Source: Lactococcus sp. S-13
GTDB taxonomy: Bacteria; Bacillota; Bacilli; Lactobacillales; Streptococcaceae
NCBI RefSeq assembly: GCF_004210295.1
Contig: NZ_SDAK01000001.1
Coordinates: 62,001-126,000, forward strand
Direction of reading: 5' to 3'
Length of the DNA stretch: 64,000 nucleotides
Shown here piece by piece: positions 29,276-46,506 of the stretch; the stretch's first letter is position 1, and each line of letters begins with the position of its first letter. A program made the position numbers and the translations under genes. The notes beneath the pieces were generated by a model that did not search any database, was not told where the DNA came from, and worked only from the letters and a program-made list of their open reading frames with translations.

Positions 29276-29295
29276 AAAAAAGAAAGAAAAAAGAC

Positions 29296-29324
29296 TTGAC
29301 AGCGTTTTCCATAAATGCTATAAT
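29296..29324 (+). promoter_or_regulatory. Promoter of bglR with possible cre site
   Basis: TTGACA (29296), 17 bases, TGCTATAAT (TATAAT at 29319). TGACAGCGTTTTCC over the -35 matches the catabolite-responsive element consensus with about two mismatches. Confidence 0.8.
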
Positions 29325-29353: not shown

Positions 29354-29382
29354 GGATGGTGATTATTAAGTTAAGCTAGACC
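29354..29382 (+). promoter_or_regulatory. Ribonucleic antiterminator (RAT) before bglR
   Basis: A 29-base element starting GGATGGTGAT and ending GCTAGACC matches the BglG/LicT-type RAT layout. Its last bases are the first bases of the terminator stem, so BglR binding excludes termination. Confidence 0.8.
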
Positions 29383-29431
29383 TTATCGTGCCCTATATAC
29401 GTCTGTATAGGGAGATAAGGTCTATTTTTTT
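29377..29431 (+). terminator. Leader terminator controlled by BglR
   Basis: Perfect 11-bp stem TAGACCTTATC/GATAAGGTCTA with an inner CCCTATA/TATAGGG stem, followed by seven T. Confidence 0.93.
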
Positions 29432-29450: not shown

Positions 29451-30296
29451 GTGAAGATCAAAAAAGTTCTGAACAACAACGTCGTCATTGCAAAAAATAA
29501 TAATGAGGAAGAAACCATTCTAATGGGTTTGGGCTTGGGTTTTGGGAAAAGAGCTGGCGAGTGTGTCGAAGACAAAAAGATTGAAAAAATCTTTGCCTTG
29601 AAAGTTACCTCTGCTCAGCAAAATTTTTCAGAGCTACTCTCGGAGATTCCAGGAAGTATTATTGAGCTTTCAATGGTGACGCTGGCTGAAGCGAAAACGA
29701 CATTCAATAAGGAAATATCCGATACAATCCTCGTGGCTTTTGCCGATCACTTGGACGCTGCGATTAAGCGGGCAGAAAAAAAGATTGCGGTTAAAAATTT
29801 CTTGCTTTGGGATATCAAGCGCTTCTTCCCTGAAGAATTTAAGATCTGTCTGACAACTTTAGAGAAAGTTAATCAACAATTTTCTATCTCATTACCAGAA
29901 GATGAGGCGGGATTTTTGGCGATGCACATCGTCAATGGAACCTTGGGAAGCGGACATGAATATGCCACAGAGTTGACCAAACTGATGGAAGAAATTTTGA
30001 CCACTTTAAAGTACACCTTGCAGGTCAATTTTAATGAGCAGGATGCTTATTTCCAGCGCTTCATCACTCATTTGAAATTTTTTACAGAACGAGTGTTTTC
30101 GCAGACTGTGACAGATGAGGTGGCTGATGAAGATTTATTTACCTTGATTATTCGTAAATATCCTAGGGCTTATCTTGGAACGTCGAAAGTGAGCGACTTT
30201 TTGAAACAAACGAAAAATTATCAAGTTTCACAAAGTGAGCAGATTTATATGACGGTGCATTTAGCACGAATTTTGGAGAAAATCCAAAAAACTTAA
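29451..30296 (+). CDS. bglR: Transcriptional antiterminator, BglG/LicT family
   Basis: RNA-binding antiterminator for beta-glucoside genes; 281 residues. The N-terminal co-antiterminator domain (residues 1-57, KIKKVLNNNVVIAKNNNEEETILMG) is followed by two PTS regulation domains, PRD1 around 70-170 (FADHLDAAIKRA, AGFLAMHIVNG) and PRD2 around 175-281 (TLIIRKYPRAY, IYMTVHLARIL). GTG start set by GGAG at six bases. Controls its own leader and probably the RAT before the EII gene; expected to be inhibited by EII phosphorylation when sugar is absent. Confidence 0.92.
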   Translation: MKIKKVLNNNVVIAKNNNEEETILMGLGLGFGKRAGECVEDKKIEKIFALKVTSAQQNFSELLSEIPGSIIELSMVTLAEAKTTFNKEISDTILVAFADHLDAAIKRAEKKIAVKNFLLWDIKRFFPEEFKICLTTLEKVNQQFSISLPEDEAGFLAMHIVNGTLGSGHEYATELTKLMEEILTTLKYTLQVNFNEQDAYFQRFITHLKFFTERVFSQTVTDEVADEDLFTLIIRKYPRAYLGTSKVSDFLKQTKNYQVSQSEQIYMTVHLARILEKIQKT

Positions 30297-30358
30297 CTTA
30301 AAATCTAAGTTGGATTTTAAAAACAGACGCTCAGCGTCAATTAACTTTGGTAACAATT

Positions 30359-30412
30359 GGATCGTGACATTAGGTTGGCGAGACCTCTAAAAAATATTAT
30401 ATTTTGGAGGTT
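30359..30412 (+). promoter_or_regulatory. Second RAT overlapping a hairpin that hides the EII ribosome site
   Basis: GGATCGTGAC...GGCGAGACC (30359-30385) resembles a RAT. Its 3' end is the start of a second stem: ACCTCTAAAA (30383-30392) pairs with TTTTGGAGGT (30402-30411), which contains the EII ribosome site GGAGG. No U tract follows, so the switch would act on translation rather than termination. Confidence 0.6.
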
Positions 30413-30416
30413 TGTA

Positions 30417-32339
30417 ATGGGCAAATATGAAGCTCTTGCAAAAGACATTGTAGCAAACGTGGGTGGCAAAGAAAATGTCATTTCCGTTATTAACTGTATC
30501 ACGCGCTTGCGTTTTAAACTCAGAGATGAGAAGAAGGCAAATACGGAAGCGTTGAAAAAGATGGATGGCGTAGTAACGGTCATGAAATCTGGCGGACAGT
30601 ATCAAGTCGTGATTGGAAATCATGTTCCTGACGTGCGTGCAGACGTGGATGCCGTTTTGGGCGTCCTTGAGACTTCAGAGGAAGATGCGGGGAAAAAAGG
30701 AAATCTCTTTGACCAGTTTGTAGATATGATTTCTGGAATCTTCCAACCGATTCTTGCACCGCTTTCTGCAGCAGGTATGCTCAAAGGGGTGAATGCCATC
30801 CTTTCGTTCTCACTAGGGCAAGGTTATCAGGCGTCATCAACTTATGCCGTCCTTAATGCAATGGGCGATGGTTTATTCCTCTTTTTACCAATTTTCATAG
30901 GCTTTGCGGCGATGAAAAAATTTAGAGGGTCACCTTTTGTAGGGATGATGATTGCGACTGCTTTGGTTTATCCTGGTTTCCTAGATGGTTCAATCACTGC
31001 GACATTTGCTAAAAGTGGTGGATTGGATTTGTTTGGCATTCCGTTTTCGGTGCCTGCGGCAGGTTACGGCTCAACTGTGATGCCAATTATTGCGATTACA
31101 GCTTTTGCAGCATTTCTAGAGCGACAATTGAAAAAGATTATTCCTGACGTGGTGAAACTTTTCTTGGTGCCATTCTTTACAGCAATCATCTCTGTTCCTC
31201 TTGGATTTTTGGTGATTGGGCCAGTGATGAACGTGGCTTCGGATGCGTTGGGTAAAGGATTGATGGCTTTACAAGGCTTTAATCCGATTATCTTTGGACT
31301 GGTGCTTGGTTTTGCTTGGCAAGTCTTGGTAATGTTTGGACTGCACTGGGCAATTGTTCCTTTTGCGATTATTTCTTTGGCCAAAGGAGAGCCTACGGCA
31401 CTCTTAACAGCAGCTGGGGTAGCTTCTTTTGCTCAAACGGGTGCTGTTGGTGCGGTGATGTTGAAAACGAAGGATAAAAAACTTCGCGAAATGGCCATTC
31501 CAGCCTTTATCTCTGGTTGGTTTGGGGTAACGGAGCCTGCGATTTACGGGATTACCCTTCCTAAGAAACGTCCATTCTGGATTTCTTGTGCGGTCAGTGG
31601 TGTTCTTGCTGCGGTAGCAATGGGAATGGGAATTAAAGCTTACACAATGGGAGCACTTGGTATTTTCAGCTTCACTTCAAATATCTCATTGGATGGTGAT
31701 GTCTCTGGTGCTGTGAAGATGATGATTTTGGCAGGGATTGCGGTTATTGCAGGATTTATCGTAACCTACATCGTAGGTTTTGAAGATGAAATCGTGGAAG
31801 TGAGCGAAGATGTAGTGGCAACACCTGTTAATTTTGCTAAACAAAAGACTAATAAAGAAGTGATTTTCACTCCAATTGAAGGTCATGTGATTCCTTTGTC
31901 AGAAGTGAAAGATGCTGCCTTTTCAGCGGAAATCATGGGTAAAGGAGTAGCAATTGAGCCTACTATCGGTGAAGTACGCGCCCCTTTTGATGGGATGGTC
32001 ATGATTTTATTCCCAACGAAGCACGCGATTGGTCTGGTTTCAGATCAGGGTTCTGAGGTATTGGTGCATATCGGTATTGATACGGTGCAACTTGAGGGAC
32101 AATACTTTGAGACTTTTGTCAAACAAGGGCAAATGGTCAAAAAAGGTGATTTGTTGATTAAATTTGATATTGAAAGCATCCAAAATGCAGGTTATAGTAC
32201 ACAGGTGCCGATTATCGTGACTAATTCACAAGATTATATGGATGTGCTTGCGACGGATAAAGCTTATGTGAAAAAAGATGAAATGCTTTTGACAGCTATT
32301 GGAGCTCAGACGACGGAACTTGTGGCAAATCCAGTATAA
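30417..32339 (+). CDS. Beta-glucoside PTS enzyme IIBCA
   Basis: Imports and phosphorylates beta-glucosides; 640 residues in B-C-A order. EIIB residues 1-90 with the phospho-Cys in VINCITRLRF; EIIC about 105-470 with about ten helices and the GxTEP-type motif FGVTEPAIYGITLPKK; EIIA about 490-640 with the phospho-His in LVHIGIDTVQLEG. ATG at 30417 chosen for TTGGAGG at five bases. Lies between bglR and the phospho-beta-glucosidase, as in known lactic bgl operons. Confidence 0.94.
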   Translation: MGKYEALAKDIVANVGGKENVISVINCITRLRFKLRDEKKANTEALKKMDGVVTVMKSGGQYQVVIGNHVPDVRADVDAVLGVLETSEEDAGKKGNLFDQFVDMISGIFQPILAPLSAAGMLKGVNAILSFSLGQGYQASSTYAVLNAMGDGLFLFLPIFIGFAAMKKFRGSPFVGMMIATALVYPGFLDGSITATFAKSGGLDLFGIPFSVPAAGYGSTVMPIIAITAFAAFLERQLKKIIPDVVKLFLVPFFTAIISVPLGFLVIGPVMNVASDALGKGLMALQGFNPIIFGLVLGFAWQVLVMFGLHWAIVPFAIISLAKGEPTALLTAAGVASFAQTGAVGAVMLKTKDKKLREMAIPAFISGWFGVTEPAIYGITLPKKRPFWISCAVSGVLAAVAMGMGIKAYTMGALGIFSFTSNISLDGDVSGAVKMMILAGIAVIAGFIVTYIVGFEDEIVEVSEDVVATPVNFAKQKTNKEVIFTPIEGHVIPLSEVKDAAFSAEIMGKGVAIEPTIGEVRAPFDGMVMILFPTKHAIGLVSDQGSEVLVHIGIDTVQLEGQYFETFVKQGQMVKKGDLLIKFDIESIQNAGYSTQVPIIVTNSQDYMDVLATDKAYVKKDEMLLTAIGAQTTELVANPV

Positions 32340-32356
32340 AAAGAAATGATGATTAA

Positions 32357-33820
<1,464 letters not shown>

Positions 33821-46117: not shown

Positions 46118-46473
46118 GGGGGCGTTACGGATTCGACAGGCACTGTCGCGCATGAACTGCAACTGCTGAGGGATCAGGATAATCATCCGCAGATAAATAT
46201 AACTGCTAAAAATAATACACAAACTTACGCAATGGCAGCCTAAACAGCACCATGCGTGCCTGATATTTGCTCACTGATGGCAATTTGACGGCCTAAACCT
46301 TTAGTCAGATACGTTGCTGTGGTGGCTTGATGCAGCAAAAGAGATTTAAAGCCCCGCTAAATATTGCTGTTTGAGACTGGCTTTGGTATTTAGTTAGATT
46401 TGAGAAAGTCCTATGGTTGTAGACGTTGATGTAGCAAGGTGTTTGGACGCGGGTTCGACTCCCGCCGCCTCCA
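46118..46473 (+). ncRNA. ssrA: tmRNA
   Basis: Rescues stalled ribosomes by tagging the nascent peptide. The 5' end GGGGGCGTTACGGATTCGAC and the 3' end GGGTTCGACTCCCGCCGCCTCC form the tRNA-like half (acceptor GGGGGCG/CGCCTCC). The tag frame starts at 46205 with GCT and reads AKNNTQTYAMAA, stop TAA at 46241, which is the lactococcal tag. The CCA tail is not encoded (CCATAAATC follows), so it must be added. Own promoter and strong terminator. Confidence 0.97.
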
Positions 46474-46506
46474 TAAATCAGTTTATATAGAATTTTATAA
46501 ACTAAC

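Follow-up and report, generated by a model that had tools for sequence, protein, structure and literature searches.

The RAT located in front of the EII gene of Lactococcus sp. S-13 (RAT2) is very probably a BglG/LicT-family RNA target with a translational output, standing beside an ordinary antitermination site in the same operon; the binding of BglR to this site and the effect on translation are inferred. The sequence of the element, its conservation, its mutually exclusive folds in silico, the absence of a U tract and its gene context are observed. Protein-directed antitermination is classically exemplified by the BglG-family proteins, which are phosphorylated by EII and HPr and bind RNA as a CAT dimer.

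The window, i.e. the whole 64,000-nucleotide stretch of DNA that was analysed, contains in this order trp genes, a promoter, a leader RAT with an overlapping terminator, bglR, a 120-nt gap, the EII gene and a gene for a GH1 glycosidase. The features relevant to this work are the following.

29296..29324, forward strand: bglR promoter, TTGACA-17-TATAAT with a TG before the -10, a perfect sigma-70-type promoter (12/12 consensus match)
29354..29382, forward strand: RAT1, the leader RAT, GGATGGTGATTATTAAGTTAAGCTAGACC, conserved in 10 Lactococcus species
29379..29431, forward strand: intrinsic terminator overlapping RAT1 (stem 29379-29422, then TATTTTTTT)
29451..30296, forward strand: bglR, BglG/LicT-family protein with CAT_RBD and two PRD (Pfam PF03123, PF00874; NCBIfam LicT)
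30359..30385, forward strand: RAT2, GGATCGTGACATTAGGTTGGCGAGACC, a 27-nt RAT with a UUNRGU-type loop (from pattern and covariation of position 5-22)
30383..30392, forward strand: anti-SD arm ACCTCTAAAA, whose ACC (30383-30385) is common with the 3' end of RAT2 (from folding)
30402..30411, forward strand: 3' arm TTTTGGAGGT, containing the SD GGAGG at 30406-30410 (from folding)
30417..32339, forward strand: EII gene, beta-glucoside PTS transporter IIABC (TIGR01995 above cut-off; Pfam EIIB, EIIC, EIIA)
32384..33820, forward strand: bglA, GH1 glycosidase (Pfam PF00232)

BglR has the architecture that defines BglG/LicT-family antiterminators, an N-terminal CAT RNA-binding domain (PF03123, 1.5e-22) followed by two PRD domains (PF00874, 4.2e-36 in two stretches), and scores 307 bits against NCBIfam LicT (cut-off 300). 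The product of bglA is probably a 6-phospho-beta-glucosidase. The EII gene starts at ATG 30417-30419; a TTG at 30357, in frame with EII, was considered as an alternative start and ruled out by stops there in relatives (e.g. L045). A cre-like sequence (29295-29312, opposite strand, one mismatch, found by eye) lies across the -35 of the bglR promoter, suggesting that this promoter may be subject to catabolite repression. Two small inverted repeats, AAAATC-TAAGTTG-GATTTT and GACGC-TCA-GCGTC, are located between bglR and RAT2 (30300-30338); they lack a good U tract and are kept in some but not all Lactococcus. A tmRNA gene is present elsewhere in the window (46118-46476, Rfam RF00023).

The first-pass annotation had described the bglR leader as a classic RAT overlapping an intrinsic terminator, and the coordinates bear this out. 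RAT1 (29354-29382) overlaps a stem at 29379-29422 with a folding energy of -22.8 kcal/mol, which is followed by the U tract TATTTTTTT; overlap with an intrinsic terminator and a U tract are what we take to define an antitermination site. RAT2 fails the same definition, as its hairpin ends at the SD and no proper U tract follows, either in the window or in relatives of the same type. It was also claimed that the second RAT overlaps a hairpin with the ribosome site as its 3' arm and without a U tract, and every detail of this description proved right by position and folding. The SD stands 6 nt before the EII ATG, the tail 3' of the hairpin is TTTGTAATGGG, and the 40-nt SD hairpin has an energy of -12.3 kcal/mol (z -4.7) that was equalled by none of 200 shuffles. 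RAT2 thus has, in silico, an SD-masking layout, in which the SD hairpin and the RAT fold are mutually exclusive and the start codon is normally spaced. An Rfam scan of the window detected no RNA family at the RAT2 site.

Conservation was examined by searching 19 Lactococcus genomes with the EII protein. A close EII (74-100% identical) behind bglR and both RATs was found in 10 of the 19 species, and in all 10 a terminator ending in a U-rich tail accompanies the leader RAT, whereas the second RAT is associated with an SD hairpin that lacks such a tail. EII homologues that are 66-67% identical and have no RAT (L011, L012) also lack the SD hairpin. A conventional long RAT pattern was too strict for use, with no matches in 59 relatives. 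We scanned about 85,000 species genomes with the pattern RAT + ACCTCY + GGAGG. This gave 32 loci, most of them in Enterococcus, the other taxa being Lactococcus, Vagococcus, Granulicatella, Breznakia, a Turicibacter MAG and Lactobacillales or Streptococcaceae MAGs. In all 32, GGAGG is followed within a few bases by an ATG, at which a PTS EII protein begins; neither of these was required by the pattern. Dozens more sites came from unselected order- and phylum-level searches, for a total of 75 distinct SD sites with RAT, GGAGG and start codon (Lactococcus, Enterococcus, Vagococcus, Granulicatella and others). The RAT is 27 nt long in 71 of these 75, and nearly all have the adjacent anti-SD. Since 10 of 19 Lactococcus species have retained the RAT pair and 75 distinct homologous SD sites exist, the layout is not due to chance; the initial observation is confirmed as real.

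The pairing itself was left free in a further search of 396 Lactobacillales genomes, where only a RAT followed by GGAGG within 40 nt was required. This search gave 66 sites, and a start codon follows in 62 of them. In 59 of the 62, the RAT runs straight into T-Y-Y, which allows CC-T-Y-Y to pair with GGAGG (G-U included); the remaining three also pair with the SD region, but the pairing contains a mismatch or is shifted in register. The four sites that lack a start codon appear from their sequence to be of the terminator type, and none has T-Y-Y. When only the 27-nt RAT was searched and nothing was required downstream, about 69 sites were found, 62 of the SD type and seven ordinary terminators (types counted by eye from lists). 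One new case from this search, in a single species (L146), has CCTCC opposite an altered SD, GGGGG. The 27-nt element is therefore a genuine RAT whose competing hairpin is exchangeable, because it overlaps true terminators at seven other sites. At L142, L143, L144 and L145, a 27-nt RAT with an ordinary terminator precedes a 6-phospho-beta-glucosidase-like gene.

Folding predictions were made for the 75 distinct sites. In the free fold, the mean probability of the SD being unpaired is 0.035 (below 0.1 in 64 sites); it rises to 0.57 when the RAT pairs are forced and to 0.56 when the spacer alone is shuffled. The mean energy of the SD hairpin changes from -7.2 to -1.6 kcal/mol once the RAT takes CC, and that of the window hairpin from -10.6 to -1.6 kcal/mol. 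With a forced RAT, the mean SD-unpaired probability of the window sequence is only 0.27 because a weak residual hairpin of 7 bp (-1.6 kcal/mol) persists. According to these models, the switch would be less complete in the window than in most Enterococcus sites.

The downstream tails bear on the possibility that RAT2 is an ordinary antitermination site, its hairpin being a weak intrinsic terminator in which the SD is included by coincidence. The same type of RAT does overlap terminators elsewhere, and the second RAT of E. coli bgl does so as well. The second RAT of the C. acetobutylicum operon also overlaps a terminator, which is U-tailed (PMC12628678). In the window, 5 T are found among the 8 nt after GGAGG, and the tail contains TTTGT; some termination at RAT2 is therefore not strictly excluded for Lactococcus alone, whose tail TTTGTAAT is the least clear case among those of the SD hairpins. 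However, 36 of the 75 sites have no T in these 8 nt and most tails are A-rich, so that in the absence of a U tract intrinsic termination is not credible at T-free, A-rich sites. In addition, the stems are short and rich in A-U pairs, averaging -7.2 kcal/mol versus -22.8 kcal/mol for the window leader terminator, and both the anti-SD register and the spacing of 5-10 nt between GGAGG and ATG are fixed. Distinct leader-type RATs from the same loci all keep a terminator with a U-rich tail (60/60), and none has the anti-SD letters (0/60). Ordinary antitermination at RAT2 is consequently unlikely. The proposal that RAT2 controls translation is favoured both by these tails and by the comparative evidence, in which an anti-SD next to the RAT has been conserved in several families along with the SD and the start codon.

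It is also conceivable, though with still less to recommend it, that BglR at RAT2 mainly affects how stable the mRNA is or how it is processed, for instance through the access of RNase III or RNase Y, masking of the SD being a by-product. In E. faecalis, NagY acts together with RNase III at the RAT of its leader (PMC12502629). An action on stability would not, however, need a conserved anti-SD in a fixed register that ends at GGAGG with a start codon behind it.

Covariation was evaluated in 49 distinct sequences, without correction for relatedness. All seven pairs of the RAT consensus GGAT-N-GTKAC...GGC-N-ARACC, with its paired ends and two internal loops, form in 49/49. The RAT pair 5-22 is C-G, A-U, G-C or G-U in every sequence (shuffle mean 22), and the hairpin pair 31-37, which varies between A-U, G-U and U-A, is formed in 48/49, with none of 2000 shuffles as good. 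The other letters of the RAT consensus are mostly fixed by the search pattern, and the three bottom SD pairs give no covariation support because CC and GGAGG are invariant, partly by the search. We consider it very improbable that RAT2 has lost its function and merely remains from an older antitermination site while the SD hairpin dampens EII translation constitutively. BglG-family operons do commonly have a second RAT in this position, but RAT2 is conserved above its surroundings, its variable pair covaries in 49/49 sequences, no clear SD hairpin without a RAT was seen, and the RAT-less Lactococcus EII homologues have no such hairpin.

A BglG-family gene lies directly upstream of 68 of the 75 SD sites. 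In four of the seven exceptions the upstream sequence is shorter than 450 bp, and a fifth lies behind another gene of the operon. A leader RAT is also present at nearly all SD sites with long enough upstream DNA, which implies that one regulator meets two RATs, with two outputs, on one transcript. Gene adjacency only suggests that the cognate BglG-family protein may bind RAT2, and there are no binding data.

The RAT-SD module is not tied to EII genes. A phylum sample of 299 genomes added three genomes beyond Lactobacillales (G726, G834 and G689). In G834, a porin-like gene and an EII gene form one operon in which each has its own RAT-SD element. In G689, one element (L155, RAT at about 1475) precedes a leader ORF of 10 codons, MFREMKAKFT, upstream of a bglG-family gene, and another precedes a porin-like gene; the same genome has tandem RATs before an EII gene (L157, about 1992 and 2070), the first apparently with a terminator and the second masking the SD. 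These tandem RATs stand directly after a promoter-like site. In the Lactobacillales genome G629 (L105), the element is located before a gene for a carboxylesterase-family lipoprotein. The porin-like proteins (L156 of G834 and L155 of G689) have about 460 aa and carry at their N terminus a stretch that resembles an SLH domain. The one that was tested had no Pfam or NCBIfam match, and the porin label therefore rests on sequence appearance only. In Enterococcus-like genomes with several elements (e.g. G534, G569), paralogous operons differ at RAT pair 5-22, C-G versus A-U, a difference that might keep paralogous antiterminators apart.

The following mechanism can be proposed for RAT2 as a translational switch. 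By default, the last bases of the RAT, CC, and the adjacent anti-SD would pair with GGAGG and thereby keep ribosomes from entering the EII mRNA; the pairing is predicted by folding and its occurrence in the cell is inferred. Inducer would leave BglR active, as can be inferred from the known biology of the family, and active BglR would hold the RAT hairpin. The closing pairs of this hairpin, G1-C27 and G2-C26, claim the same CC, and the masking hairpin would lose its two strong bottom pairs and open the SD. That BglR binds RAT2, that binding opens the SD and that translation follows are all inferred steps. A single protein could then control a double gate, antitermination at RAT1 for transcription of the operon and unmasking at RAT2 for translation of EII. 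EII proteins of the beta-glucoside type inactivate their own antiterminator, and confining EII translation to the induced state would for this reason reduce leakage.

The operon resembles the BglG/LicT/SacY systems (E. coli bglGFB, B. subtilis licT-bglPH, C. acetobutylicum bglGTH) in its CAT_RBD + PRD protein, its RATs with paired G1-G2/CC ends and internal loops, the order regulator-EII-glucosidase with a RAT both in the leader and in front of the EII gene, and mutually exclusive folds that share the RAT 3' end. In contrast to these systems, the competing hairpin of RAT2 masks an SD instead of forming a transcription terminator, and the RAT is of a short 27-nt form with a UUNAGU loop. Translational versions are known for other attenuation regulators, namely mycobacterial ANTAR proteins, PyrR of Mycobacterium smegmatis, T-boxes of Actinobacteria and TRAP at trpE. 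As in these cases, an attenuation-type regulator or sensor would be re-used for SD access; however, the proteins or RNAs are unrelated and several repress on binding, whereas BglR at RAT2 should activate.

One review describes the Bgl/Sac family solely as antiterminators (PMC4347634). Our search of the open-access full-text literature yielded no description of an SD masked by a RAT-coupled hairpin, or of RAT-controlled translation; as the search covered this literature only, the absence of reports does not prove novelty. RATs that do not overlap terminators, for which roles other than antitermination were proposed, had been noted earlier by Gordon et al. 2015, as cited in PMC12502629. According to the citing paper, these were genome-scan candidates in B. 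subtilis and E. coli, with SD masking unmentioned in the citing passage, whereas a defined and conserved SD-masking layout is described here. The claim that translational control by this switch would be new, made in the first-pass annotation, thus holds for SD masking within the literature searched, and not for terminator-free RATs as such.

The data support the RAT-coupled translational switch as a conserved class, which generalizes the interpretation initially given for a single operon. It appears likely that BglG/LicT-family proteins are also translational activators, acting through a widespread and undescribed class of RAT-coupled SD switches in Bacillota that provides dual gating, is reversible on finished mRNA and is portable as a module before EII, porin-like and esterase genes. 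If this is true, a BglG-family protein and its RNA target would form a module able to serve a transcriptional or a translational output and, unlike antitermination, the translational RAT switch could act after transcription. It would account for RATs without terminators, the double gate would suppress leaky synthesis of the transporter, and the element would be a compact translational activator for use in lactic acid bacteria.
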